DNA of 32,559 bases. Origin: Flammeovirgaceae bacterium. GTDB lineage: Bacteria > Bacteroidota > Bacteroidia > Cytophagales > Cyclobacteriaceae. Below are positions 1-16,470 of this stretch, piece after piece. Each line of letters begins with the position of its first letter. Position 1 is the first letter of the stretch. The stretch lies in assembly GCA_003232185.1 (NCBI GenBank), contig QIMC01000476.1, positions 1 to 32,559 on the forward strand, written 5' to 3'. The position numbers and the translations under genes were made by a program. Under the pieces are notes generated by a model that worked only from the letters and a program-made list of their open reading frames with translations, did no database searches and was not told where the DNA came from.

Positions 1-105
1 CATCATTAATCCAATAATTATATAAATACCCATTTCAATAGATAGCTAAGTTGTGGTTTTATTGTTTTTGGTAAATACCAAGTTATGAAATTTAATTCAT
101 TTGAT

Positions 106-1131
106 CTATGCTGACGAGCTGTCCTTTTTTTGTGATTTTTTCCCCTGAGTAAGCACCATTGCGACAGATATCATTCCCGCTAGTACTATAAGCACCATTT
201 GGGAGGAATGCAAAAGAAAGGCGAAGGATAATCCATCCTCTTTACTCACCCCATAGTAGATTAATACTCCGGCAACCAATATATGATAGGCCCCAATTCC
301 TCCCTGGACAGGGGCTGACATACCAAGCCCACCCATTACCAGTAATGCCAGTCCTGCACGCCATCCAAGATGAGCAGTGGACTCCATGGATTGGAATACT
401 ACGAAACTCATTAGGTAATACATTGCCCAGATGCCAACGGTAGCAATCCAAAAAGCTCCTGGGTTTTTTAAGCGAGTAATACTAATGAACCCTACCCAAA
501 TTTGACTTACAAAAGTTTTAAGCTTCCCCCAACTTTTGCTCCTTACTATTTTACCTTTTAGAAGGTACCACAATAGGATCAATATCAGGAGAAGAGCTCC
601 CGGATAATGTAGATTCTGTATCAGTAATTGGTAGATACCAGAAAACTTCTCCGTGAATAAATCCTGAAAAAAGCCACTTAGCTTCTGAAACTCAATAATA
701 AACGTGATCCCAATAATGATCAATAGTGACAGTACATCAAGTACTCTTTCACTAACCACTGTACCGAGAGAAGAAGTCACCGGAACTTGATCAGTTCTTT
801 TCAATACCAAACAACGTGAAATTTCTCCCAGCCTGGGAACAGCAAGGTTAACCAGATATCCAATAAACAAGGCCGACAGGCTTCTTAAGAATGTCGGATT
901 GTGACCAGTGGGCTCAATGAGCATTTTCCATCTATATGCCCTTAAAAGGTGACTGATAATTCCAATACAAAGAGAAAGGGCGATCCATTGATATTTCACC
1001 TCCTTCATCTGCTCCAGAGTACCAGAGAACCCGTCTTTGTAGAGATACCAAAATAAGAATGCCGCCAGTCCCAGCGAAAACAATATTTTTAAAAAGGACA
1101 AAAGGTTTTTGGTAGTTAGCAATTTCAGCAT
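106..1131 (-). CDS. Flippase-like / lysylphosphatidylglycerol synthase TM-region (UPF0104) integral membrane protein
   Basis: 341-aa ORF with many hydrophobic segments; 'HLLRAYRWKMLIEP', 'NLAVPRLGEISRCLVLKR' and 'PVQGGIGAYH' resemble the UPF0104/LPG-synthase TM family. Start codon lies 3 bp after the panC stop. Confidence 0.85.
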   Translation of the reverse strand: MLKLLTTKNLLSFLKILFSLGLAAFLFWYLYKDGFSGTLEQMKEVKYQWIALSLCIGIISHLLRAYRWKMLIEPTGHNPTFLRSLSALFIGYLVNLAVPRLGEISRCLVLKRTDQVPVTSSLGTVVSERVLDVLSLLIIIGITFIIEFQKLSGFFQDLFTEKFSGIYQLLIQNLHYPGALLLILILLWYLLKGKIVRSKSWGKLKTFVSQIWVGFISITRLKNPGAFWIATVGIWAMYYLMSFVVFQSMESTAHLGWRAGLALLVMGGLGMSAPVQGGIGAYHILVAGVLIYYGVSKEDGLSFAFLLHSSQMVLIVLAGMISVAMVLTQGKKSQKKDSSSA

Positions 1132-1134
1132 TGG

Positions 1135-1992
1135 TCAGTTTAAATTATCAAATAAAGGTACATTATCAATGAGTCGTACCTTGCCTAAAAAAGCCGCCAA
1201 ACAAATGGAAAGCGGTTCTTTTCCATACGGGACGGAGGGGGGTTTTAGTGAGGTGGAATGTACTATTTCAAGGTATTGAAGATTAATTGTTGGAAATTTC
1301 GATAAGTATTTAACTCCCGCCAATTTGGCTTTGTCGATTTGCTGTAATTGTTGTAATTGCTGCCTAACCACAGAAAGAGCTTTAAATAGTTCGCTTGCAA
1401 CTGATCTGTGTTCTGTAGATAACCGTTGATTTCTGGAACTCATGGCCAATCCATCTTTCTCACGGACAATAGCAACTCCAATAACCTTAACTGGAAAACT
1501 AAAATCGTTTACCATTTGCTTTATGATTACCAGTTGTTGCCAATCCTTTTCGCCGAAATATGCACAATCAGGCTGAACCATATGAAATAATTTGGCCACC
1601 ACCAGAGCTACCCCATTGAAGTGCCCAGGCCGTTGGCGTCCTTCCATTACTGATTCCAGGTACCCAAAATCCAAAGATAAACCTGGCTTTGCCGGATACA
1701 TCACCTGGTCTTCAGGACAAAACACTACCTGGCAGGCTTCGTTCTTCAGCATCGCAAGGTCTTGATCCAGGTTTCGGGGGTAATCTTTCAAGTCTTTCTT
1801 GTGGTTGAACTGGGTAGGATTTACATAAATGCTGCAAACTGTAATATCATTGGACCGTACAGATTTTCTGATTAGCTCAAGATGCCCCAGGTGCAGAGCA
1901 CCCATAGTAGGGACTAGCCCTATCTTTTTACCTTGGCTACGTTGTTCAAACAGAAATGCTTTTAAGGAATCTGGAGTGGAGAAAACTTGCAT
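1135..1992 (-). CDS. panC: Pantothenate synthetase
   Basis: Motifs 'GLVPTMGALHLGHLELI', 'VNPTQF', 'PGHFNGVALVVAKLF', 'FGEKDWQQL', 'MSSRNQRL'. Start taken at MQVFSTPDS rather than the longer ORF-track start (2019). Confidence 0.96.
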   Translation of the reverse strand: MQVFSTPDSLKAFLFEQRSQGKKIGLVPTMGALHLGHLELIRKSVRSNDITVCSIYVNPTQFNHKKDLKDYPRNLDQDLAMLKNEACQVVFCPEDQVMYPAKPGLSLDFGYLESVMEGRQRPGHFNGVALVVAKLFHMVQPDCAYFGEKDWQQLVIIKQMVNDFSFPVKVIGVAIVREKDGLAMSSRNQRLSTEHRSVASELFKALSVVRQQLQQLQQIDKAKLAGVKYLSKFPTINLQYLEIVHSTSLKPPSVPYGKEPLSICLAAFLGKVRLIDNVPLFDNLN

Positions 1993-2053
1993 TAACCTTT
2001 CAATAACGGTTACACCCAAAGGCCTAAAACTACCGGTAAAAAGGTAAATAAAC

Positions 2054-2083
2054 TTGAATTACGGCAATAATTTTGTAATTTTG
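2054..2083 (+). promoter_or_regulatory. Putative Bacteroidota-type promoter (TTG-N19-TAATTTTG)
   Basis: TTG at 2054-2056 and TAATTTTG at 2076-2083 match the Bacteroidota -33/-7 pattern, about 38 bp before the 2121 ATG. Confidence 0.5.
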
Positions 2084-2120
2084 TAGTCCCGTAACAAGTC
2101 TTTATTAAAAAACACATACA

Positions 2121-2933
2121 ATGTCAAAACTTCGAATACTCTATGTTGCCAGTGAAATAAATCCATTTCTTCAAACTTCTGAAGTGGCAGACTTTGTAAG
2201 AAGGTTGCCACAAGGTATGCAAGAACGTGGAATGGAAATAAGAATATTAGTCCCTCGATTCGGAATTATTAATGAGCGAAAGAACAGGCTGCATGAGGTG
2301 GTAAGGCTTTCAGGCATCAATATAGCGGTGGGCGAAGAAGAAAAACCTCTGGTGATCAAAGTGGCGTCGGTTCCAAGCGCAAAACTTCAAGTATACTTTA
2401 TAGACAATGAAGACTATTTCCATAGAAAGTCCGTCTTTTTTGATAAAGAAGATAAGTTCTATGAAGACAATGACGAACGAGCGATATTTTTCTGTAAAGG
2501 TGTAATTGAAACAGTTAGGAAGTTAGGCTGGGCTCCTGATATTGTGCATTGTAACGATTGGATTACCAGCTTGATCCCTATGTACCTGAAGACCACTTAT
2601 AAGAACGATCCAATATTTCAAAATGCTAAATGTGTCTTTACCGTTTATGATAATGGTTTTAGCCACAAATTCGATCGAAGCATTATTGAAAAGGTCAAAA
2701 TGATCGATATAGAAGACAGCATGTTGACCAATTTGGAGTCTGCAGACTATGACGGTTTGATAAAAATAGGCGCAGAATATGCAGATGTAGTAATTAGGGC
2801 AGAAGAAGAGGTAAGTGCTAGCCTGGACAAATTGTTTTCAAGTCTGGAGAAAAATCAAAAAATTGAAACCATAGAAAAGGATGATAATTTAGTGGAATCC
2901 TATTATAACTTGTATAATGAATTGGTTGACTGA
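2121..2933 (+). CDS. Glycogen/starch synthase N-terminal (GT5) domain-only protein
   Basis: 270 aa; 'RILYVASEINPFLQTSEVADFVRRLPQGMQERGMEIRILVPRFG' and 'PDIVHCNDWITSLIPMYLK' align by eye with the GlgA N-domain. The GT1-like C-domain is absent and KTGG reads QTSE. Confidence 0.8.
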   Translation: MSKLRILYVASEINPFLQTSEVADFVRRLPQGMQERGMEIRILVPRFGIINERKNRLHEVVRLSGINIAVGEEEKPLVIKVASVPSAKLQVYFIDNEDYFHRKSVFFDKEDKFYEDNDERAIFFCKGVIETVRKLGWAPDIVHCNDWITSLIPMYLKTTYKNDPIFQNAKCVFTVYDNGFSHKFDRSIIEKVKMIDIEDSMLTNLESADYDGLIKIGAEYADVVIRAEEEVSASLDKLFSSLEKNQKIETIEKDDNLVESYYNLYNELVD

Positions 2934-4290
2934 TCAAAAAAAGTTCTTTTTATTAAACGGGCTGATCATTTTATCAGCCCTTTTTTCATGCGAAGATCCT
3001 GGTAGGTTAGGAATTGATCTGATTGACAATGATGATGATTTTGCGGTGTTTTTCACTGAAATCAATCTTGACTCAAAAGTGGTTCAACTGGATAGCATCA
3101 ATACCACAAATCGTGGAATAATGATGACCGGGTACCATACAGACAATGATTTTGGTATGGTGCAGGTTCAAAGTTATTTGAGATTGCTACCGCCAGCTAC
3201 CAGCCCAAACATTCCTGAAGATGTGTTGGAAGCAGACTCGATAAAAATGGATCTACGCTTTAATTACTTTTTTGGACAAAATTACCCAGCAACTCATAAG
3301 CTATATGTTCATGAGTTATCAGAACAATTGCTAGTAAATAATACTTACTACAGCTTTGATAGTACCCCATTTGAGCCAGTTAATGTGATTGACACCACCT
3401 TAACCTTAACAGAGCAAGACACACTTCTAAGCCTAAACCTGGAGTCAATGAGGGAGGAGTTCTTTTTGGCCCTTAAAGATTATCAGGCAGACAGTGCAGG
3501 GGCGGCGAATTTTGTTGAGCAGTTTAAAGGGATGACGCTGATCTCAGATCCGATTAGTAATGCTGTAGTCGGCTTTAATGTGCTACATACAGAAAGTAAT
3601 ATAGTGATGTACTATACAACAAACGATTCCATTGTTAATACAGTTAAAGTTCGTTATTCCACTTACTATAATCAGATAACTTCTGACTTTAACGGAACAG
3701 AATTGGAAGGGATTGAGTTACTTACGGATTTCAGCCCGGTATCAGGGAAATCCTATCTTCAAACAGGTACAGGATTGGTAGTTAAAGTGGATTTTCAATC
3801 ATATTTCGACTTTATAGACAATGATACCACCGGAGTCATTGTAATCAACAAAGCGGAGTTGGTAATGGACGATTTGCAGGGACTTACAAATTCAATTAGC
3901 CCACCGGTGCAAATCTCCTTTTATTTTGCCGACGAAAACAATGAAACCATATCAGTTGGAGATAACCTTATAGTACCAGCTACTATTCAAACTGATTTGG
4001 TATATATTACTGCAACTCGAAATAACCTGGATCCTTTTAATACCAGTGTTAGTTCTGTTCAGGCAGAATTAGACACGACAGATGTCAAGTACAATCCGGA
4101 AATCACCCTATTCTTACAGCTTCTTCATGATGGAGCTTTAAGCAGGAGCGATGCGGATAAGGTATTTACCATGCCTTTTAGTTTTGTTGAGCTTCCCAAT
4201 GCGGTAAGGGATAATGGGCGTAATCTTGACCGGTTTATACTGGAGCCAGCAAATCTCCGATTGGAAATATATTATTCAAGACTTAGATAA
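2917..4290 (+). CDS. DUF4270 domain-containing lipoprotein
   Basis: Lipobox 'LSALFSC' followed by 'EDPGRLGIDLIDND'; position between the GT5 protein and glmS fits the Bacteroidota DUF4270 family. Overlaps the upstream gene by 17 nt. Confidence 0.8.
   Translation: MNWLTDQKKFFLLNGLIILSALFSCEDPGRLGIDLIDNDDDFAVFFTEINLDSKVVQLDSINTTNRGIMMTGYHTDNDFGMVQVQSYLRLLPPATSPNIPEDVLEADSIKMDLRFNYFFGQNYPATHKLYVHELSEQLLVNNTYYSFDSTPFEPVNVIDTTLTLTEQDTLLSLNLESMREEFFLALKDYQADSAGAANFVEQFKGMTLISDPISNAVVGFNVLHTESNIVMYYTTNDSIVNTVKVRYSTYYNQITSDFNGTELEGIELLTDFSPVSGKSYLQTGTGLVVKVDFQSYFDFIDNDTTGVIVINKAELVMDDLQGLTNSISPPVQISFYFADENNETISVGDNLIVPATIQTDLVYITATRNNLDPFNTSVSSVQAELDTTDVKYNPEITLFLQLLHDGALSRSDADKVFTMPFSFVELPNAVRDNGRNLDRFILEPANLRLEIYYSRLR
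2959..2986 (+). terminator. Intrinsic terminator-like hairpin inside the DUF4270 5' coding region
   Basis: Perfect 8-bp stem GGGCTGAT (2959-2966) / ATCAGCCC (2973-2980), 6-nt loop, then TTTTTT (2981-2986). Confidence 0.75.
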
Positions 4291-4350
4291 GTTAAATATA
4301 TTCTTATTATATTTATATGTTAAATCATTATTTAAATCAATATAATAAGG

Positions 4351-6189
4351 ATGTGTGGCATAGTAGCGTATATAGGATCTAAGCAGGCTTCACCAATCGT
4401 ATTAAAGGGATTAAAGAGGCTAGAATACAGGGGGTACGATAGTGCAGGAATAGCGCTAATTGAAGATTCTTTGCTGACAGTATATAAGAAAAAGGGTAAA
4501 GTATCGGACCTCGAATCTCACCTGGGTAATCTTAGTCCTCAAAGTACTATTGGCATCGGTCATACTCGCTGGGCCACCCATGGTGAGCCTAATGACATAA
4601 ACGCTCACCCTCATTTTTCTGCATCCGGAAACCTGGCAATTATCCACAACGGGATAATTGAAAACTATTCCTCAATCAAAACAGATCTTCAGAACAAAGG
4701 ATATAAATTTAACAGTGATACGGATTCTGAGGTCTTTATCTACTTCATTGAGGATATACAACAAAAAACTAAGTGTTCACTGGATGAGGCGGTTCGATTG
4801 GCATTGTTAAAGATCGTCGGGGCATACGCAATTGTTATTCTCTCACAGGATGATCCTGATACATTAATAGCTGCCCGTAAAGGAAGTCCATTGGTGATTG
4901 GAATCGGGGAAAACGAATATTTTCTGGCTTCTGATGCTACCCCTATTGTAGAATACACTAATGAAGTTGTTTACATGAATGACCAGGAGATGGCCATTAT
5001 AAACAAGAACAACCTGATTATCAAAACCACTCAAGACGTTGAGACCATCCCCTATATCCAAACACTGGACATCGAATTGAATGCCATTGAAAAGAGTGGT
5101 TATGATCACTTTATGTTGAAAGAGATTTTTGAGCAACCCCGATCAATTGGCGATTGTATGCGAGGTAGACTTAATGCAGCCAGCGGTCATCTGGTTCTGG
5201 GAGGCATCAGAGAATACGCCAATAAACTGGAGTGCGCTGAAAGAATACTAATCGTAGGTTGTGGTACCTCCTGGCATGCCGGCCTGGTTGCGGAATATTT
5301 TTTAGAAGAATTCTGTCGTATTCCTGTTGAAGTGGAATATGCTTCTGAATTCAGATACCGAAATCCGGTGATCAAAGAAGGTGACGTCATGATTGCAATT
5401 TCCCAGTCTGGAGAAACTGCGGATACTTTAGCCGCTATTGAACTGGCCAAGTCCAAGGGGGCTATAGTTTTCGGGGTCTGTAATGTTGTTGGCTCGACAA
5501 TAGCAAGGATTTCACATGAAGGTGCCTATACACATGCAGGGCCGGAAATCGGAGTGGCTAGTACCAAGGCATTTACAGCTCAATTGACGGTGCTATTTAT
5601 GATTGGATTGCTGGTTGCTCATCAAAAAGGTTCTATTACTGAAAGTAAGTATAGAGAATTATTAGTGGAGATGGAGCAAATTCCCTCAAAAGTAGAGACA
5701 GCATTACGGTTAAACCAACAAATTAAGGGTATTGCGAAAATATTTAAGGATGCCAGGAACTTCCTGTATTTGGGTAGAGGATTTAATTTTCCGGTGGCGC
5801 TTGAAGGGGCTCTAAAACTAAAGGAAATTTCCTATATCCATGCCGAAGGGTATCCGGCCGCAGAAATGAAACACGGCCCCATCGCTTTGATTGATGAGGA
5901 GATGCCCGTCGTGTTTATAGCTACCAATGATAGTTCTTATGAAAAAGTGGTGTCCAATATTCAGGAAGTAAAAGCCCGAAAAGGAAAAGTAATTGTGGTG
6001 GTAACAGAAGGAGACACTCTGATTTCAAAAATGGTGGAATTTGTAATAGAAGTTCCTGCTACACATCCTGCACTAATGCCGATGGTTTCGGTCATTCCCT
6101 TACAACTTTTAAGTTATCACATTGCGGTAATGCGGGGTTGTAACGTGGACCAGCCCAGAAATCTGGCAAAATCTGTGACAGTTGAGTAG
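4351..6189 (+). CDS. glmS: Glutamine--fructose-6-phosphate aminotransferase (isomerizing)
   Basis: N-terminal 'MCGIVAYIGSKQASPIVLKGLKRLEYRGYDSAGIAL', 'GHTRWATHGEPN', SIS-domain 'SQSGETADTLAA', C-terminal 'QPRNLAKSVTVE'. Confidence 0.98.
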   Translation: MCGIVAYIGSKQASPIVLKGLKRLEYRGYDSAGIALIEDSLLTVYKKKGKVSDLESHLGNLSPQSTIGIGHTRWATHGEPNDINAHPHFSASGNLAIIHNGIIENYSSIKTDLQNKGYKFNSDTDSEVFIYFIEDIQQKTKCSLDEAVRLALLKIVGAYAIVILSQDDPDTLIAARKGSPLVIGIGENEYFLASDATPIVEYTNEVVYMNDQEMAIINKNNLIIKTTQDVETIPYIQTLDIELNAIEKSGYDHFMLKEIFEQPRSIGDCMRGRLNAASGHLVLGGIREYANKLECAERILIVGCGTSWHAGLVAEYFLEEFCRIPVEVEYASEFRYRNPVIKEGDVMIAISQSGETADTLAAIELAKSKGAIVFGVCNVVGSTIARISHEGAYTHAGPEIGVASTKAFTAQLTVLFMIGLLVAHQKGSITESKYRELLVEMEQIPSKVETALRLNQQIKGIAKIFKDARNFLYLGRGFNFPVALEGALKLKEISYIHAEGYPAAEMKHGPIALIDEEMPVVFIATNDSSYEKVVSNIQEVKARKGKVIVVVTEGDTLISKMVEFVIEVPATHPALMPMVSVIPLQLLSYHIAVMRGCNVDQPRNLAKSVTVE

Positions 6190-6196
6190 CAAGTTA

Positions 6197-6853
6197 TTAT
6201 TCGGTTAGGGAACGTTTTTTAAGCAGGGGACAAACACTGTATTTGTTTTCATTGGTATTTCGCTGCATGGCTTCAAGAAGTCCACAAACATGACTGTATC
6301 CGATGTTCATGGCCATTTCAAAGGGGCCTGCCGGATAATTTGTACCAAGCTTCATGGCCAGTTCAATATCTGCTTCTTTTGCTGTTCCCTCATCAAGGGT
6401 ATAATATGCCTCGTTAATAATCATGCATATTACCCTGGGAGTGACCATCCCAACGGTATCTTCCACAATTCGATATTCACTATCCAGCTGCCTGCATATT
6501 TCTTGAACTGTAGTTCGGTCCACCGACAGCGTTGTTAATTCCAGCAGCGGTCTATTGAACATTCCAGGAAACCCATTGAATCCCAAAATTTGGTTGCTCC
6601 AATGGTGATTTTTCTCTAATTCAACCAGCGTGGTTTTAACAGAGTTCAGCAGGAGTAATGCCTGAGGGTTGTGATGGTATAGTTTACCATGTTGCGGGTC
6701 ATCTGTAATTTCGAAATCAAATATTATTTCTGCAACTTTAACTTCTTCAAGGTTAACTTCACCACAACTTTTAAAGCATACAGAGTGCTTTGACTTAAAT
6801 TTTGACTTAAATTCAGCCTGAGAGTTTGGGCTACCTACCACCAGAATATTCAT
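6197..6853 (-). CDS. Short 3-hydroxyacyl-CoA dehydrogenase-like protein (C-terminal 3HCDH-like domain)
   Basis: 218 aa; 'GFNGFPGMFNRPLLEL', 'DTVGMVTPRVICMIINEAYYTLDEGTAKEADIELAMKLGTNYPAGPFEMAMNIGY' match the 3HCDH C-domain; N-terminal Rossmann region is shortened and degenerate. Confidence 0.75.
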   Translation of the reverse strand: MNILVVGSPNSQAEFKSKFKSKHSVCFKSCGEVNLEEVKVAEIIFDFEITDDPQHGKLYHHNPQALLLLNSVKTTLVELEKNHHWSNQILGFNGFPGMFNRPLLELTTLSVDRTTVQEICRQLDSEYRIVEDTVGMVTPRVICMIINEAYYTLDEGTAKEADIELAMKLGTNYPAGPFEMAMNIGYSHVCGLLEAMQRNTNENKYSVCPLLKKRSLTE

Positions 6854-6903
6854 ATAGCCGAAGTACTTAGATTCAAATTTGTGTTAATATTAATAAATTA
6901 GAA

Positions 6904-7287
6904 ATGGATAGTAAAAATATAATTAATACGCCTAATGCTCCAGCTCCCATTGGGCCATACAATCAGGCGATCTCAGCGAACCAAACACTATATGTATCTG
7001 GCCAGATCGCTTTGGATCCAGCTACCAATGAATTGGTGACCGGTGACATAGCTACTGAAACCGGTCAGGTAATGAAAAATATCGGAGCTATTCTGGAATC
7101 AGCGGGCTTATCTTTTGCCCAGGTAGTAAAGTGCTCAATTTTTGTTAAGAACCTTGAAAATTTCTCAGCCATAAATGAAACTTATGGTAGATTTTTCAGC
7201 CAAAATCCCCCGGCCAGAGAAACAGTTGAAGTAAGTCGATTGCCAAAGGATGTTAACCTTGAAATCAGTTGTATCGCTTGTTGGTAG
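6904..7287 (+). CDS. ridA: RidA family reactive intermediate/imine deaminase
   Basis: 'NAPAPIGPYNQAISANQTLYVSGQIALDP', 'ARETVEVSRLPKDVNLEISCIA'. Confidence 0.95.
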   Translation: MDSKNIINTPNAPAPIGPYNQAISANQTLYVSGQIALDPATNELVTGDIATETGQVMKNIGAILESAGLSFAQVVKCSIFVKNLENFSAINETYGRFFSQNPPARETVEVSRLPKDVNLEISCIACW

Positions 7288-7351
7288 TTGTGCAATACCC
7301 CTGGCATATTGCATATTTTACATACTTTTGCACAAAATTATCGTCTAAGAA

Positions 7352-8893
7352 ATGAGCAACGTTAGAGTAAGATTTGCTCCCAGCCCTACTGGGGCACTGC
7401 ATATTGGTGGACTGAGAACTGCGTTATACAATTACCTTTTTGCCAAAAGCAAAGGAGGTCAGTTTATTTTGAGAATCGAAGATACCGACCAAGCCAGGTT
7501 AGTAGAAGGAGCTGAAGAATATATTTCACAGGCATTGGAGTGGTTGGGAATAGTGCCGGATGAAAGCCCTAAACATGGCGGGCCCTATGGTCCCTATCGA
7601 CAAAGTGACCGGGTGGATATTTATCAGAAATACGCAAAACAGTTGGTATCGGAAGATTTGGCATATTATGCATTCGATACTGCAGAAGAACTACAGGCCA
7701 TGCGAGACCGGCTAAAGGCCGAAAAAGTAGCAAATCAACAATATAACAGTGTTACCAGGGCTTCTATGAGCAATTCTCTCACCTTGTCTAAACAGGAAGT
7801 AACAGACTTGCTGGAAAAGGGTGTGCCTCATGTGATTCGATTGAAGGTGCCTGCAAAAGAAGACATTCGGTTTGAAGATTTAATCCGAGGATGGGTTAAA
7901 ATCCACAGCTCAACCATGGACGATAAAGTAATATTGAAATCCGGAGGCTTCCCAACTTACCATCTGGCCAATGTGGTTGATGATCATTTGATGAAGATAA
8001 CTCATGTTATACGAGGGGAAGAATGGCTTCCTTCAGCTCCTTTGCATGTGTTGCTGTATCGGTTTTTAAATTGGGAAGATTCTATGCCGGAATTTGCTCA
8101 TTTACCCCTGATTTTGAAACCTGACGGCAATGGAAAATTGAGCAAGAGAGAGGCTGACAAACAGGGGTTTCCCATTTTTCCGATCAATTGGACGAATAGT
8201 AATGGCACCAAAAATATCGGTTTTAAAGAGCACGGTTACCTTCCCGAATCAATCACCAATTTTCTAGCGTTATTGGGTTGGAACCCAGGAAATGATCGCG
8301 AACTTTATTCATTAGATGATCTGGGAAGTGCTTTTTCTTTGGAGCGCATTGTTAAATCTGGTGCAAAATTTGATATAAATAAGGCACAATGGTTCAACCA
8401 ACAATATTTAAGAGATAAATCCCCTGAAGAACTAAATAATTATTTGGCTGCGGACTTGGAAAGCTCTGGTTTAAAAGCAGGAAATGATAAAATTCAGAAA
8501 GTAACCGAACTTTTGAAGGATCGAATTGTTTTTCCTCAAGACCTATTCAGCAATGGAAGATATTTATTCGTGTCGCCGGAACAGTATGATCCACAGGTCG
8601 TACAAAAAAAGTGGGACCACGAAACAGCAGCTTTTCTTCAGGAATACAGGGAGTCGATAAATTCCAGTGAAAATTGGAACGCTGAAATAGCCCATCAGTT
8701 ATTGTCTGATCAATTAGAACAGGCCAAATGGGGATTCGGTAAGATAATGCCTGGATTACGCCTTGCACTTACTGGTATAGGCAAAGGTCCGGACTTAATG
8801 AAAATAATGGAAATTCTCGGGAAAGATGAAACGATTCGCCGGTTGAACCAAGCCATTACCCGGTTGGCAAATACCACTATAAAGAAAGCATGA
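7352..8893 (+). CDS. gltX: Glutamate--tRNA ligase
   Basis: 'VRFAPSPTGALHIGGLRTALYNYLFAKS', 'FILRIEDTDQAR', 'GKLSKREADKQG' (KMSKS-like). Confidence 0.97.
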   Translation: MSNVRVRFAPSPTGALHIGGLRTALYNYLFAKSKGGQFILRIEDTDQARLVEGAEEYISQALEWLGIVPDESPKHGGPYGPYRQSDRVDIYQKYAKQLVSEDLAYYAFDTAEELQAMRDRLKAEKVANQQYNSVTRASMSNSLTLSKQEVTDLLEKGVPHVIRLKVPAKEDIRFEDLIRGWVKIHSSTMDDKVILKSGGFPTYHLANVVDDHLMKITHVIRGEEWLPSAPLHVLLYRFLNWEDSMPEFAHLPLILKPDGNGKLSKREADKQGFPIFPINWTNSNGTKNIGFKEHGYLPESITNFLALLGWNPGNDRELYSLDDLGSAFSLERIVKSGAKFDINKAQWFNQQYLRDKSPEELNNYLAADLESSGLKAGNDKIQKVTELLKDRIVFPQDLFSNGRYLFVSPEQYDPQVVQKKWDHETAAFLQEYRESINSSENWNAEIAHQLLSDQLEQAKWGFGKIMPGLRLALTGIGKGPDLMKIMEILGKDETIRRLNQAITRLANTTIKKA

Positions 8894-9117
8894 CTAAGAA
8901 AAAACACAAACCCAAGAAAGATGAAAAGCCCAAAGTAAATAAAGAATTAGAAGGCTTTGATATTGAAATTGACGCATTTGGTGAGATTACCACTAACTTC
9001 GATATCAATAAAATAAATGAGTTTCTAAACAGGGAGGTAGATGATAAGAAACTTAGGGGCCGAAAAGATCCTTATAAAAAGAGAAAGCCAGGCCGGAAAG
9101 ATGATAAACAAGAATAG
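8890..9117 (+). CDS. Small highly charged protein, ATGA-overlapping gltX
   Basis: 75-aa ORF whose ATG overlaps the gltX TGA; Lys/Asp-rich termini flank a hydrophobic-patterned core 'FDIEIDAFGEITTNFDINKINEFLNREVDDKKL'. Confidence 0.65.
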   Translation: MTKKKHKPKKDEKPKVNKELEGFDIEIDAFGEITTNFDINKINEFLNREVDDKKLRGRKDPYKKRKPGRKDDKQE

Positions 9118-9188
9118 GAACTGAACCTCGAATAATTTACCGGGAATATACTTTGGTGTAGAAATCTTTTAAAAACCAACTCAGGTTT

Positions 9189-10397
9189 ATGGCAAAATTA
9201 CGTATTGGACTTATTCGAGAAGGTAAAAAGCCATTGGATCGGCGGGTGCCGATAGCTCCGGTTTCCGCCCAATATATCAACCGGAATTTTGCCGATGTTG
9301 AGGTAGTCTGCCAGTCAAGCGATCACCGTGCCTATACTGATAAGGAGTACATGGAAGCCGGAGTGGAAGTGGTCCGGGAGGTCTTGGATTGTGATGTTTT
9401 ATTAGGTGTGAAAGAAGTGACGGCAAAGGAATTGATCGCGGAAAAATGTTATTGCTTCTTTTCTCACACCATTAAGGCACAAGATTATAATAGAGATTTA
9501 CTCCGTACCATTCTGGACAAGAAGATTACTTTGGTGGACTACGAATGCCTGACAAACTCATCTGGCAATCGAGTACTGGCCTTTGGTCGATATGCAGGCA
9601 TTGTTGGTGCCTATAATACTATATGGGCTTATGGGCAACGATACCGACTGTTTGATATTCTACGGGCCCGGGACTGTTTCGATCTTCAACAACTACAAGA
9701 TGAGTTTGTTAAGGTGGTACTTCCACCCATCAAGATTGCGCTTACAGGTGGTGGCAGGGTGGCAAAAGGAGCAATAGAAATACTTAATAGTTTGGGAATC
9801 AGGCGTGTGACCGCTAGTCAATTTATTGAACAGATCTATGAGGAGCCTGTTTACACCCAGTTAAATGCCCGTGACTACCACGTAAACAAAAACGGTACTC
9901 TTTTTAATAGGGAGGAATTTTTTGCAGACCCTGTAAACTACCGGAGTAGTTTTTCGCAATTTACCAGTCGTGCTGATGTTCTGATTGCTGGAGCCTATTG
10001 GGATCCAAGAGCACCAGTATTATTTACCAACCACGATGTGCTTAAGCCTGAATTTAAGATTAAAGTAATAGGAGATATCACCTGTGATATCGAAGGCTCA
10101 ATTCCGGCAACCAAGAAAGCCTCGACCATTGAAGAGCCAATTTATGATTACAATCCCAGTGCAGACAAGATTGAGCAGCCTCTTACAGATGAAGCTAATC
10201 TTACAGTTATGTCCATTGATAACTTGCCAGATGAACTTCCCAGAGATGCCAGTTTAGATTTTGGAGAAGACCTAATTCAACATGTACTTCCTCATCTGAC
10301 AGGATCAGATAGTCAAGAGGTAATCTCAAGGGCCACCATCACAAAAGAGGGATTGTTAACTGAAAAATTCAGCTATTTGCAAAATTTTGTAGACTGA
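9189..10397 (+). CDS. NAD(P)-dependent oxidoreductase, alanine dehydrogenase / saccharopine dehydrogenase (LYS1)-like
   Basis: 'RIGLIREGKKPLDRRVPIAPVSA', 'DVLLGVKEV', 'CYCFFSHTIKAQDYNR', 'LVDYECLTNSSGNRVLAFGRYAGIVGAYN', 'IGDITCDIEGSI'. Confidence 0.82.
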   Translation: MAKLRIGLIREGKKPLDRRVPIAPVSAQYINRNFADVEVVCQSSDHRAYTDKEYMEAGVEVVREVLDCDVLLGVKEVTAKELIAEKCYCFFSHTIKAQDYNRDLLRTILDKKITLVDYECLTNSSGNRVLAFGRYAGIVGAYNTIWAYGQRYRLFDILRARDCFDLQQLQDEFVKVVLPPIKIALTGGGRVAKGAIEILNSLGIRRVTASQFIEQIYEEPVYTQLNARDYHVNKNGTLFNREEFFADPVNYRSSFSQFTSRADVLIAGAYWDPRAPVLFTNHDVLKPEFKIKVIGDITCDIEGSIPATKKASTIEEPIYDYNPSADKIEQPLTDEANLTVMSIDNLPDELPRDASLDFGEDLIQHVLPHLTGSDSQEVISRATITKEGLLTEKFSYLQNFVD

Positions 10398-10399
10398 AA

Positions 10400-12073
10400 C
10401 TAATCGTTCATTGAGATGAGGAATTCCTCGTTGCTTTCTGTGCCTTTCATTCTATCCAAAATAAACTCTATGGCTTCGCTGGAGTTCATGTCAGACATAA
10501 ACCTTCTTAATATCCAAATGCGCTGTAAAGTTTCCTTGTCTATTAAAAGGTCTTCCCGACGAGTTCCTGACCCGGTAATATCAATTGCAGGATAAACCCG
10601 TTTGTTTGACAACTTACGATCCAGTAATAGCTCCATATTTCCAGTACCTTTAAATTCTTCAAAGATTACTTCATCCATTTTGGAACCTGTTTCAATTAAG
10701 GCGGTAGCTATAATGGTGAGAGAACCACCGTTTTCAACATTTCTGGCTGCACCAAAAAATCGTTTAGGCTTATGTAAAGCATTCGCATCCACACCACCGG
10801 AAAGAATTTTTCCTGAAGAGGGGATAACTGTGTTATAAGCTCTGGCCAATCGGGTAATGGAATCAAGTAGAATTACTACATCATGACCACATTCGACCAT
10901 CCGCTTGGCTTTTTCCAATATTAGGTTGGACACCTTAACATGGCGATCGGCTTGCTCATCGAAGGTAGAGGAGATAACCTCTGCTTTCACACTGCGAGCC
11001 ATATCTGTAACCTCTTCCGGACGTTCGTCTATTAAAAGTATAATTAAGTGGACATCAGGATGATTTTTGGCAATTGCATTAGCGATTTGCTTCAACAATA
11101 CGGTTTTGCCGGTTTTGGGTTGAGCAACGATCATTCCACGCTGTCCTTTCCCGATGGGAGCAAACATATCCAACAGTCGAGTGGAATACTCACTGGATTT
11201 GGTACTAAGGTTCAGCTTTTCGTCAGGAAATAATGGTGTCAGGTATTCAAATGGAACTCTATCCCTGATTTCGTCCGTAGTTTTGCCGTTTACCGATTCT
11301 ACCCTTAAAAGTGCAAAATACTTTTCACCTTCTTTAGGGGGTCTAATTTGTCCTTTAACAGAATCACCTGTTTTTAAACCGAAAAGTTTAATTTGAGACG
11401 GGCTGACATAGATATCGTCAGGGCTACTTAAATAGTTGTAATCTGAGGATCGCAGAAATCCATAACCATCCTGCATAATCTCCAATACACCTTCGTTGAC
11501 AATCAGTCCATCAAAATCCTTAATATTGTTTTTCTTTGGTTTTGGCTCCCGTTTTTCCCTTGACTGATGATCCCGATTCTCTCTGGGTGCCTGCTCGCGG
11601 TTTTCCTTGGGTGCCTGCTCGCGGTTTTCCTTGGGTGCCTGCTCACGGGTTTCCTTGGGTGCCTGCTCACGGGTTTCCTTGGGTGCCTGATCCCTGCTTT
11701 CTCTGTTTGGCCTTTCCCGTCGATCTCCGCGGTCTGAAGATTTCCGGCCAGGTTTTGCCGGAGCTTCTGATGACGGGGTCTCGATTTTAACGTTGAATGA
11801 ATCTAAAATCTCTCCATCTGACTGCGCTTTGTCTTGACTTTTGGAAACATTTTCCCGTTTGGGAATCTTAGGCCCTCGTTTATTGGGTTCACGTTTGGTC
11901 TCAACAACTTTTTTATCGGGTAGGTCGTTTTCAGGTGTAATGGCCTGTTGATCAAGAATCTTGTAGACAAGGTCCTTCTTTACTAATTTCTTAAAGTTTT
12001 TTACACCTAACTCCTCGGCAATTTCTTTCAACTCTGAAAGAAGTCGAACATTCAATTCTTCAATATTGTACAT
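10400..12073 (-). CDS. rho: Transcription termination factor Rho with long low-complexity N-terminal insertion
   Basis: '[49 protein letters not shown]', '[27 protein letters not shown]', '[18 protein letters not shown]', '[12 protein letters not shown]'. Confidence 0.98.
11585..11704 (-). repeat. 24-bp in-frame tandem repeat (about 5 units) within rho
   Basis: GGGTGCC recurs at 11585, 11609, 11633, 11657 and 11681, period exactly 24 bp; encodes (R)EQAPKE(T/N) octapeptides. Confidence 0.95.
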
Positions 12074-12352
12074 AAAAAAAAAGGATTTTATCCTATTGGG
12101 TTAGAAATGGTTAGTATAAGCTCTAAATGCTATGAATAAATTAATCAGGTTGAATTATTAATCTAGATATGATCTCAGGAGCTGAACAGCCTTGAGCGAT
12201 ATGCAAAGATCTTGCAATAATATACTAATGGTGTAAAATAAACAAGCAATTGAATTAAATTTCTCTTTTACCGGTGACGATAGGGTTAGGTGGTTAAATA
12301 TTACTTATTATCCTTATTATTCATTTATTTTGTGTCCTTTTAAATCACAATC

Positions 12353-13630
12353 ATGCTGGAAATTGCAATTATCAGGGATCATTTTGACCAGGCAGTAAGT
12401 GGGCTGGCTAAAAGAAACATTAAAGATGCTGGGCATTTGCTTTCAGAGGTTCTTGACTTAGACAAAAAGCGGAGAGAAACTAAAACCAGCTTGGATAGCC
12501 TATTGGCTGAGGCCAACGCAAAATCCAAAGAGATAGGGAGATTGATCCAGGCCGGTGAGAAAGAGCAAGCAAAGCAATTCAAGCAAGAAACATCCGATTT
12601 AAAAAATCAGGCGAAGGATCTCCAGGATCAGTTCAACCTCTTGGTCAATAAGCAGCAGGAGGCTTTATACAATCTCCCAAATATCCCCAATCGGAAGGTG
12701 CCCATGGGTAATTTAGCGTCGGAAAATGAGCTGGTTGAGGAGTGGGGTGATTTTCCAACACTTGATGAAAACGCTTTGCCCCATTGGAACCTCATAAATA
12801 CCTATGATATTATTGACTTTGATCTGGGCAATAAATTAACCGGTGCAGGCTTCCCGGTGTACAAAGGGAAAGGGGCTAAATTGGTACGTGCTTTAGTGAA
12901 TTTCTGCCTGGATCAAGCAGAGGCAGCGGGTTACCTGGAAATCCAACCACCTATAGTGGTAAACGAAACCTCGGGCCTGGCAACCGGGCAACTACCGGAC
13001 AAGGAAGGCCAAATGTACGCCATCTCTGATTCCAATTACTATCTTATCCCAACTGCCGAAGTCCCTATAACCAATATATATCGGGATACTATACTGGATG
13101 TTGAGGACTTGCCTGTAAAGAATGTAGGTTATACTCCATGTTTTAGAAGAGAGGCGGGTAGCTGGGGTGCTGATGTACGAGGACTTAACCGATTACACCA
13201 ATTTGATAAGGTTGAAATTGTGCAAATCAATCACCCTGAGCATTCTTACCACGCGTTGGATGAAATGTGCAAGCACGTAGCATCCTTGTTACAACAGTTG
13301 GAGCTTCCTTATAGAAAACTAAACCTGTGTGGTGGAGATCTCGGTTTCACATCAGCACAAACATTTGATTTTGAAGTCTATGCTGCCGGGCAGGACAAAT
13401 GGTTGGAAGTGAGCTCAGTGAGTAATTTCGAAACCTACCAAACCAATCGATTAAAGCTTAGGTGCAAAGGACTGGATAAAAAGAACTTCTTGTTACACAC
13501 TTTGAATGGAAGCGCATTGGCTATACCTCGAATATTGGCGGCAATTCTGGAAAACAATCAATTCCTGCATGGAATCCGTATTCCTGAAGTATTAGTCCCC
13601 TATACTGGATTTGATACTGTTTCAAAATAG
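12353..13630 (+). CDS. serS: Serine--tRNA ligase
   Basis: Coiled-coil N-terminus, 'TSGLATGQLPDKEGQMY', 'LIPTAEVPITNIYRD', 'CFRREAGSWGADVRGLNRLHQFDKVE', 'LHTLNGSALAIPRILAAILEN'. Confidence 0.98.
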   Translation: MLEIAIIRDHFDQAVSGLAKRNIKDAGHLLSEVLDLDKKRRETKTSLDSLLAEANAKSKEIGRLIQAGEKEQAKQFKQETSDLKNQAKDLQDQFNLLVNKQQEALYNLPNIPNRKVPMGNLASENELVEEWGDFPTLDENALPHWNLINTYDIIDFDLGNKLTGAGFPVYKGKGAKLVRALVNFCLDQAEAAGYLEIQPPIVVNETSGLATGQLPDKEGQMYAISDSNYYLIPTAEVPITNIYRDTILDVEDLPVKNVGYTPCFRREAGSWGADVRGLNRLHQFDKVEIVQINHPEHSYHALDEMCKHVASLLQQLELPYRKLNLCGGDLGFTSAQTFDFEVYAAGQDKWLEVSSVSNFETYQTNRLKLRCKGLDKKNFLLHTLNGSALAIPRILAAILENNQFLHGIRIPEVLVPYTGFDTVSK

Positions 13631-13660
13631 CCTGAATTCCAAAAGGTTTTTGGATAAGAT

Positions 13661-14134
13661 ATGACTGATATAAGTATTAGAAAAGGATTGGAATCGGATA
13701 TTCCTGATGTCCTAAAATTAATAAAAGAGCTTGCTGAATTCGAGCGCGCCTTGGACAGTGTAGAAGTTACGGAAGATCAATTGCTAGCCGATGGGTTTGG
13801 ATCCTCACCCGCATTTGAATTTCTGGTGGCAATAGAAAATGACAAAACCATCGGATTATCATTATTCTATTATAGGTATTCTACCTGGAAAGGGAAAGGG
13901 CTCTATCTGGAAGATTTGGTGGTTGCCAACGCTTTACGTGGCAGAGGAATTGGTAAAAAACTATTATTGGAAACAGCAAAATTTGGCAAAGAGCAACATT
14001 GTACGGGAATGTATTGGCAAGTGCTTGACTGGAATACTCCGGCAATTGAATTCTACAAAAACCTGGGTGCTAAATTAGATGGTGAATGGATCAATTGTAA
14101 ATTAGACCAACATTCCCTGGATCAGATTAACTGA
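13661..14134 (+). CDS. GNAT family N-acetyltransferase (diamine/spermidine acetyltransferase-like)
   Basis: 'GLYLEDLVVANALRGRGIGKKLLLETAKFGKEQHCTGMYWQVLDWNTPAIEFYKNLGA'. Confidence 0.92.
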   Translation: MTDISIRKGLESDIPDVLKLIKELAEFERALDSVEVTEDQLLADGFGSSPAFEFLVAIENDKTIGLSLFYYRYSTWKGKGLYLEDLVVANALRGRGIGKKLLLETAKFGKEQHCTGMYWQVLDWNTPAIEFYKNLGAKLDGEWINCKLDQHSLDQIN

Positions 14135-14182
14135 CTTTTATAAAAGAGATAGGTTCAAGATTCAGCCTCAGTTGTCCTTTAA

Positions 14183-15433
14183 TTAGGTTAAAAATATAGA
14201 CGGGGTCAGCAAATTGGGGAAGGCAACAGCAAGTAAAAAGCTAAGTATTGCAATAACAAAACCAAACATAAAAATAGTATAAGATATGCGGAGGAACTGA
14301 TATTTCTTTCCTAGAACCACTCCTAAATAATAAATATCTTTGATCAGACTACCATATAGGTAGTCCCCATCCTTGAGCATTTCCTTCATACCCCACATAT
14401 AGTCGTCAAATTTCATTCTGTGAAAATTGCCAAAGAAAAGTAGATTGGTGCGCTTGTTTTTGATATCAATTCTGGTGAATTTTCCTGACGAAATATTTGG
14501 ACGAGTAGCCAATATAGCAAAAACAATGGCCGCCAGGCAAACTGCTACAATAATCAATGTAGGTATAATCAAGTTTGGATGTTCTTCAAACTTTCGGATC
14601 AAGACACTAACTAAAATGGAGAGTATAATTGAATTTATGGAGATCATGATATTGGCCTTGGTATCGGCCATCCCACTTAAAGTCATATGGTTTTTGGAAG
14701 TGATCCGAAACATGGTTTCAATACCACGTGTAGGTTTTTTAAGCACTTGTTCTTTTAAATTGCTTAATTCATTTTCAAGTTTTTCAGTGTACTTTGAATC
14801 ACTGTTTATGACCTTGAGTCTTTTTTTTATTTTTTTCAGATTTTTTGCTTTTCTGGGACCAAGCGTGCTTTTGCCATAATCAGTAAAATATCGGTGATTG
14901 TCAATAAAAACGGTACTCATATCCAGCCACTCTGATTCTGTAATGATATCATTTTCCAGAATACTGAATTCAGTGCGCAGGAGTTCTGCTTTTTCGAAGT
15001 AGTGCTCGCTACCTAAATGATGCAGATCTGCATCACAGAGTACCTGTTGTGCCAGGTTTTTCGGACTTTGTGGTATTTTAGTAGCCTCAATACAGCCTAC
15101 AACTTCTTCAATGTATTTTTTTTCTGCACCAAGCTGAGTTAAGAACTCCCTAGAAAGCGTAATGCTGTGATCCTCATGTTTTACTTTGTTGGTAATGTAG
15201 CCGATATCATGTAGGTAGGCAGCTGTCATCACTACTTCAACCTGATCATTTTCTAAGTTGGATTGATTGGCTATCTCTTGAACAGCGGCAACCACGTCCA
15301 TGGTATGTTGCAAGTTGTGGTAGACGTATTGATCTGGTAATTTATTAGTAATCAGATCGATTACAAATTTCTTGGTTTGATCTAATACAGGGGAGCCTGT
15401 TTGGGAACCGTTGTGTTTGTGATTCTCTTTCAT
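14183..15433 (-). CDS. HD-domain phosphohydrolase fused to Pycsar-effector-like (DUF5706/PycTM-like) transmembrane domain
   Basis: HD signature 'YHNLQHTMDVV ... TAAYLHDIGY ... HEDHS ... LCDADLHHLG'; C-terminal 'NHMTLSGMADTKANIMISINSIILSILVSVLI', further TM helices and 'FFGNFHRMKFDDYMWGMKEMLKDGDYLYGSLIKDIYYLGVVLGKKYQFLRISYTIF'. Start taken at MKENHKHNG (15433) rather than 15520. Confidence 0.8.
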   Translation of the reverse strand: MKENHKHNGSQTGSPVLDQTKKFVIDLITNKLPDQYVYHNLQHTMDVVAAVQEIANQSNLENDQVEVVMTAAYLHDIGYITNKVKHEDHSITLSREFLTQLGAEKKYIEEVVGCIEATKIPQSPKNLAQQVLCDADLHHLGSEHYFEKAELLRTEFSILENDIITESEWLDMSTVFIDNHRYFTDYGKSTLGPRKAKNLKKIKKRLKVINSDSKYTEKLENELSNLKEQVLKKPTRGIETMFRITSKNHMTLSGMADTKANIMISINSIILSILVSVLIRKFEEHPNLIIPTLIIVAVCLAAIVFAILATRPNISSGKFTRIDIKNKRTNLLFFGNFHRMKFDDYMWGMKEMLKDGDYLYGSLIKDIYYLGVVLGKKYQFLRISYTIFMFGFVIAILSFLLAVAFPNLLTPSIFLT

Positions 15434-15549
15434 AATTCGTATAATCCTACATACTAATATGGCCTTAATGCCATCAACACAACGTTGAATACTGAGTATA
15501 AATATAAGAAAATTAAACAAAATGGCCTTTCTATAATTCTCAATATGTC

Positions 15550-16470
15550 ATGAATGTAAGAATTATCGGAGTTTATCTTTGTACATGCTACCTCATGGTT
15601 CAGTTAATTGCTTGTCAAATTAATGAAACAGACTATAATGCTCGTTTTCAGCCATATACAGATGAGTTTGCAAAATTTTCAGGATACAATCTTCTTCAAC
15701 CTTCCAGTACCTTCATATTACCGGGTATCCTGACAGAGATATCCGGCGTTTCTATGCTCAATGACAGCGTAGTGGCCTGTATTCAGGACGAAGCGGGAGT
15801 CATATTTATGTATGGCATGAAGCAGCGTAAAATTGTGGATCGTATTCGATTTAGTCGCGGGGGAGACTATGAGGGTATCGAAGTGGTTGGCAACCAGGTT
15901 TATATTCTTAGAAGTAATGGCAAGATTTACCAGGTTTCACTTGAAGATAATACCACTATCACCTTGAACACTTCTCTTAAGGGGGATAATAATCCTGAAG
16001 GCTTGGGTTATGACAAAAAGAACAACCAGCTATTGGTTAGTACCAAAGGAAAGGCTGGACTTGAGGGGCAATCCATAGCAGGAAGGGCCATTTACGGTTA
16101 TCATCTTGATAAGGGTTTTAATCATAATCCTGTTTTCATAATAACCTCAAAAGATCTCGAATCCTGGAATGTGAAACAACAAACTCCTTTAAAACTGACT
16201 CAGAAGAAAAAAGCATTTAAGCCCTCCGGCGTTGCTGTACATCCGGAAACCGGCGATATATTCCTAATTGCCTATGTAGGCAGGTTACTTTTGGTTTTAA
16301 GTGCTGAGGGACAAATCAAATACGCTATACCCTTGTCACCAAGGATCTTCAGGCAACCTGAGGGAATATGCTTTACCTCTGTCGGTGATCTAATAATTTC
16401 TTCTGAAGGGCAGGATGGGAGCGGTAAAATTCAAATGTTTAAAAAAGGGGGGGCAGGATTGATGGACTGA
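15550..16470 (+). CDS. SdiA-regulated-like domain putative lipoprotein
   Basis: Signal with 'LIAC' lipobox; 'EISGVSMLNDSVVACIQDEAGVIFMYGMKQRKIVDRIRFSRGGDYEGIEVVGNQVYILRSNGKIYQV' and 'SGVAVHPETGDIFLIAYVGRLLLVLS' resemble SdiA-regulated beta-propeller proteins. Confidence 0.7.
   Translation: MNVRIIGVYLCTCYLMVQLIACQINETDYNARFQPYTDEFAKFSGYNLLQPSSTFILPGILTEISGVSMLNDSVVACIQDEAGVIFMYGMKQRKIVDRIRFSRGGDYEGIEVVGNQVYILRSNGKIYQVSLEDNTTITLNTSLKGDNNPEGLGYDKKNNQLLVSTKGKAGLEGQSIAGRAIYGYHLDKGFNHNPVFIITSKDLESWNVKQQTPLKLTQKKKAFKPSGVAVHPETGDIFLIAYVGRLLLVLSAEGQIKYAIPLSPRIFRQPEGICFTSVGDLIISSEGQDGSGKIQMFKKGGAGLMD

Follow-up and report, generated by a model that had tools for sequence, protein, structure and literature searches.

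Intrinsic (Rho-independent) terminators combine a perfect GC-rich stem and a short loop with a T run that begins where the stem ends, all on the correct strand, and intra-operon partial terminators, placed between codirectional genes, set the ratio of two products. Terminators within genes are usually seen as accidents to be avoided. Early terminators inside open reading frames (ORFs) are known singly, e.g., ispU in E. coli, where, as in translation-controlled attenuators, a trailing ribosome could open the terminator (PMC7815308); Borrelia commonly has 3′ ends within ORFs (PMC10319736). Intrinsic terminator hairpins of E. coli can be kept from forming by a ribosome that follows closely (PMC5021804), and in some bacteria transcription outpaces translation (PMC13323073); for the Cytophagales, a literature search found nothing on transcription–translation coupling. 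Overlapping genes can be translationally coupled by termination-reinitiation (PMC6728339). In the open-access literature, we found no earlier account of a conserved terminator running through signal-peptide codons; the restriction to open-access papers makes this weak evidence.

The locus described here lies in a window of 32,559 nucleotides from a Flammeovirgaceae bacterium (assembly GCA_003232185.1, contig QIMC01000476.1, positions 1 to 32,559 of the forward strand), to which coordinates refer unless another locus is named. On the + strand, divergent from panC on the − strand, a short GT5 gene (2121–2933; 270 aa, starch/glycogen synthase catalytic domain only; Pfam PF08323, E = 3.5e-58) is followed by a DUF4270 lipoprotein gene (2917–4290; 457 aa; Pfam PF14092, E = 2.9e-20) and then by glmS, the next same-strand gene (4351–6189; NCBIfam TIGR01135, E = 2.7e-247). 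As to the function of DUF4270, solved structures gave insignificant matches only, and the open-access literature a single mention in a table. Using the Bacteroidota promoter consensus (TTTG/TAnnTTTG, quoted in PMC7366714), we found a candidate GT5 promoter, TTG-N19-TAATTTTG, at 2054–2083 (+), a perfect Bacteroidota-type match and the sole TTG-N18–21-TAnnTTTG match within 1900–4500; a consensus scan of this kind does not amount to proof. The consensus scan listed no terminator-like sites in the DUF4270–glmS gap between 4290 and 4351. Near the end of DUF4270, a −7-like TAGTTTTG at 4179–4186 could serve a separate glmS promoter; a matching −33 element was not seen there.

GT5 and DUF4270 overlap by 17 nt (2917–2933, +), with the DUF4270 ATG lying within the last GT5 codons (NELV.* / ATG). 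The lipoprotein signal-peptide codons, as read from the translation (MNWLTDQKKFFLLNGLIILSALFSC), span 2917–2991 (+) and end with the lipobox Cys at codon 25 (2989–2991, +). Within them, a left arm GGGCTGAT (2959–2966, +; codons 15–17) and a right arm ATCAGCCC (2973–2980, +; codons 19–22) form the hairpin GGGCTGAT-CATTTT-ATCAGCCC (2959–2980), and a T6 (the U tract; 2981–2986, +; codons 22–24, CTT TTT TCA) abuts the stem and is followed by CATG. The stem, in codons 15–22, and the T tract, running to codon 24, fall within GLIILSALFS, in the hydrophobic core that the lipobox Cys immediately follows. Beginning 26 nt past the GT5 stop codon and 42 nt past the DUF4270 start codon, the stem is a perfect 8 bp, and the hairpin has a stability of about −12.3 kcal/mol (synonymous-shuffle p = 0.005). 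The traits of an intrinsic terminator are thus found in the window, namely a stable GC-rich hairpin and, on the transcribed strand, a T6 that adjoins the 3′ side of the stem. An earlier note on this DNA had placed a hairpin plus U6 in codons 15–24 and described the 17-nt overlap; its coordinates are exact, and the site stands far above chance. Over positions 1–16000, however, the consensus scan counted nine terminator-like sites against 12.9 expected by chance from shuffles, so the count of this class alone proves nothing and the case rests on comparison.

In every sequence feature open to test, the element resembles intrinsic terminators; unlike them, it lies within the downstream gene, whose signal-peptide codons it shares, and termination here is a prediction from sequence. 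Like intra-operon partial terminators, it lies between codirectional genes, with a second promoter match absent in the window, and it would work most like an intra-operon attenuator; unlike them, it lies among codons at loci with overlapping or abutting genes, and its read-through is a prediction. With translation-controlled attenuators and early 3′ ends of the ispU type it shares a place within an ORF and a hairpin that a trailing ribosome could open, but it has neither a leader peptide nor a conserved antiterminator; it occurs phylum-wide at one junction through differing sequences and usually gives way to a terminator in the spacer once the genes move apart. The conserved overlap of the GT5 stop and the DUF4270 start recalls termination-reinitiation, although the overlap measures 17 nt rather than ATGA or TGATG and a terminator follows immediately downstream.

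We compared the window with four genomes of the same genus, in which DUF4270 identity is 62–74%. GGGCTG...TCAGCCCTTTTTTCATG was found at an unchanged position in all four, and the T6 was likewise the same, while the flanking residues and loop codons vary. When we counted the codons with an identical amino acid in all five genomes, 7/7 alignable hairpin and tail codons (GGG CTG TCA GCC CTT TTT TCA) were synonym-invariant, compared to 20/188 elsewhere (downstream) in DUF4270, where the figures by degeneracy were 1/39 for six-fold, 3/64 for four-fold, and 15/71 for two-fold codons. The earlier note had named absence of the stem in close relatives as one result that would refute its proposal; the stem is present in all four, with its synonymous sites kept, and the idea of a terminator-type element sharing bases with signal-peptide codons is borne out, with selection acting on both stem and tail.

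GT5 was found in 240/247 genomes of the family, and the relatives read at the junction downstream of it include Roseivirga, Fulvivirga, Marivirga, Reichenbachiella, Chryseolinea, and Marinoscillum. Judged by these names and identities, the window probably belongs to the Cytophagales, in the Cyclobacteriaceae as GTDB defines that family. Stems were found by folding, imperfect ones included, and were compared with a null in which codons were redrawn synonymously from local usage with the protein kept. A signal-peptide terminator (score >0) was present at 104 of 243 Bacteroidota lipoprotein loci after GT5, against 7.4 expected from the synonymous shuffles, and a score >10 at 85 of the same loci against 2.8; the score has the textbook d’Aubenton Carafa form, without a fit to Bacteroidota, and serves for ranking only. 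An independent pattern scorer that does not use this score gave 94/214 loci against 7.1 expected; in all these counts the loci are related genomes and not independent samples. Positive loci with p ≤0.02 fall in 19 GTDB families besides the window’s own (about 20 in all). The positive loci have a median of 10 pairs and −14.3 kcal/mol, and their T tracts are richer than the synonymous expectation given the stem position (median p 0.11; 94% of loci beat the median shuffle).

The hairpins themselves vary in sequence, length, and position, e.g., CGGGATTAGCACTCATGCTGATCCCG-T9 (L087), GCAGGGTACCTGCTATTGGCGGGTACCCTGC-T7 (L085), and GCCATTGCTGATACCAGCTGTAATTGCAATGGC-T8 (L092). In 25 nonredundant sequences of one fixed geometry, 161/200 stem cells were paired, compared to 131.6 on average and 143 at most in the shuffles, indicating covariation in this group. 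The two larger geometry groups, with the Cys at residues 22 and 23, showed no shared stem in the fixed-column pairing test; hairpin positions differ among their members. Seven of eight distant lipoproteins checked were DUF4270 by Pfam. About half of the loci fell under the score cutoff, some of them keeping the hairpin with a weak tail, and others, for example L019, L043, and L159, having no recognizable hairpin plus T tract. Start codons were predicted, and several distant loci use TTG or GTG; the choice of start codon leaves the embedding unaffected, since the hydrophobic core contains the T tract. One sublineage (L013, L015, L017, L018, L022, L025, L095–L097, and L180), in which GT5 ends in IYT(E/D)LA(G/S/N), has lost the −17 ATG, and the apparent DUF4270 start is a TTG located 41 nt upstream of where the GT5 stop ends; several of its members carry a weaker hairpin spanning the GT5 stop codon (e.g., TTGCCGGCTAAGCTGGCCGGCAG in L017).

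The signal was specific to this junction and to the sense strand. With the pattern scorer, windows 100–300 nt further down the same genes were positive in only 9/642 cases, and the sense strand in 94/214 compared to 21/214 for the antisense. Among DUF4270 paralogues not adjoining GT5, 0/8 had such a terminator. In 800 kb from two genomes of the family, scores >0 were obtained for 1/88 other lipoprotein signal regions, 8/625 gene starts, and just 49/297 ordinary 3′ ends with a spacer. These low control rates mark the GT5/DUF4270 junction as special, bearing a terminator more often than an ordinary gene end. A genome-wide habit of the lineage was ruled out, as only 3/109 overlapping-pair candidates in the 800 kb plus the window had such a terminator. 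One of the two besides the GT5/DUF4270 pair, a thymidine kinase/PorZ-like overlapping pair (tdk-porZ) at L275 8026–8096, has a similar hairpin and T tract in a single genome, and its relatives do not.

We then related the position of the terminator to the spacing of the genes. The ATG overlap, noted earlier for the window, proved to be itself conserved, with the DUF4270 ATG at −17 relative to GT5 in 125 loci. Where the genes overlap, a signal-peptide terminator was found in 81/160 loci, and where the lipoprotein starts within 50 nt after the GT5 stop, in 21/54. Conversely, where the start lies >50 nt past GT5, the terminator was in the untranslated spacer in 16/29 loci and in the signal peptide in 2/29; L252 and L250 keep the signal-peptide location despite spacers of 66 and 108 nt. 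In half of the spacer cases (8/16), the T tract begins only 6–19 nt ahead of the start codon, which leaves too little room for a second promoter downstream of the terminator. The spacer terminators at >50 nt imply that the central conserved feature is something other than a dependence on translation of DUF4270; these loci share a predicted termination between GT5 and DUF4270, and whether it is embedded tracks how close the genes lie. At L175, L179, L218, L232, and L238, DUF4270 is missing and glmS directly follows GT5, with an ordinary terminator between the two at L238 and L232.

The element is very probably an intrinsic terminator under selection, one by which transcription passing from GT5 into DUF4270 is attenuated, and its selection across about 20 families suggests that the terminator limits the output of the DUF4270 lipoprotein. 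In the explanation that we favor, and consider somewhat probable, a functional intrinsic terminator between the two genes is partly read through, making DUF4270 a minor product of the GT5 transcript. RNA polymerase leaving GT5 would form the hairpin and pause on the T tract; a fraction of polymerases would terminate, and the remainder would complete DUF4270 and perhaps glmS. If DUF4270 starts upstream of the GT5 stop or shortly past it, a terminator would fit only in the signal-peptide codons, where a hydrophobic core that accepts many different residues can encode a GC stem as well as a T run. In overlapping lineages, a ribosome entering DUF4270 at the overlapping ATG could open the hairpin and so raise read-through; the hairpin would be clear of this ribosome during initiation but would be met by it during elongation. 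Given the sole promoter match before GT5 and the short gaps from T tract to start codon, read-through from GT5 is the simplest source of DUF4270 mRNA; a promoter inside GT5 may exist, and its transcripts would likewise have to pass the terminator.

The earlier note had assigned the element a different main function, that of a translation-dependent attenuator, in which ribosomes reinitiating at the overlapping ATG open the hairpin and transcription otherwise stops. The strong conservation of the overlap speaks for it, as do the E. coli precedent (PMC5021804) and the location of the hairpin, whose median distance from the DUF4270 start codon in overlapping lineages, 25 nt, puts it just clear of a ribosome that is initiating; where embedded, the T tract is always coding. 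The terminator overlaps translated codons in the window and most close relatives, and L252 and L250 retain the signal-peptide site. Against this, the terminator precedes the start codon, beyond DUF4270 translation, in the 16/29 loci with spacers >50 nt, the window hairpin lies far enough past the GT5 stop to be beyond a terminating ribosome, and tight coupling is not universal (PMC13323073). Of the proposal, the embedding in codons stands, whereas embedding as a conserved requirement does not. We regard translation dependence as plausible but rather unlikely to be the main function, and rank partial termination first and translation dependence second, since the spacer versions sit beyond the reach of DUF4270 translation.

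Alternatively, the hairpin could act after transcription, guarding a processed GT5 mRNA at its 3′ end or slowing ribosomes during membrane targeting of the signal peptide, with the T tract a by-product of Phe and Leu codons. Hairpins close to start codons can slow ribosomes, and the signal-peptide core is T-rich in any case; yet the T tract exceeds the synonymous expectation given the stem, the signal is strand-specific (94 sense, 21 antisense), DUF4270 paralogues and other lipoproteins are without the hairpin, and the spacer versions lie outside any signal peptide, which together make this reading improbable. Still less probable, and by our estimate highly so, is an RNA switch in which an alternative antiterminator structure or a ligand-binding leader governs the hairpin: short TGATCA matches upstream of the window hairpin could pair with the stem region, but the stretch from stop to hairpin varies freely in the genus with no alternative pairing kept, its length differs widely among lineages, and no Rfam family matched in 2000–4500 with E up to 1. 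That the peptide GLxxxSALFS merely happens to be encoded by an inverted repeat has next to no chance of being correct, even though a GL...(S/P/L)AL motif recurs in many relatives, because protein-preserving shuffles give 7.4 loci and not 104 and the hairpins come with quite different peptides and stems (e.g., L085, L087, L092, L233, L330, and L365); chance and protein-driven coincidence alike are ruled out by the shuffles, shifted windows, paralogues, and other lipoproteins.

Selection appears to keep a terminator in a protein-coding segment over great evolutionary distance, a sign that the bases of a signal peptide can hold a further message. We raise, tentatively and as doubtful, a dual code across the Bacteroidota, in which the same bases would serve as export signal and translation-sensitive terminator, rebuilt repeatedly with different sequences, and ribosome entry would decide whether the mRNA is completed; on this reading, signal-peptide codons may be a general site of hidden terminators. 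The junction offers a natural comparative test of transcription–translation coupling in Bacteroidota, where little is known about it, and codon-optimizing or annotating such genes without heed to the RNA could remove a control element. A second pair, in which an MbnP-like gene precedes a cytochrome c peroxidase-like lipoprotein gene that overlaps or adjoins it, shows hints of the same design (L309 1689–1740, equal to site L261 10684; L404, L407, L411, L413, and L418), with signal-peptide-codon hairpins of differing sequence in several genera and weaker T tracts.
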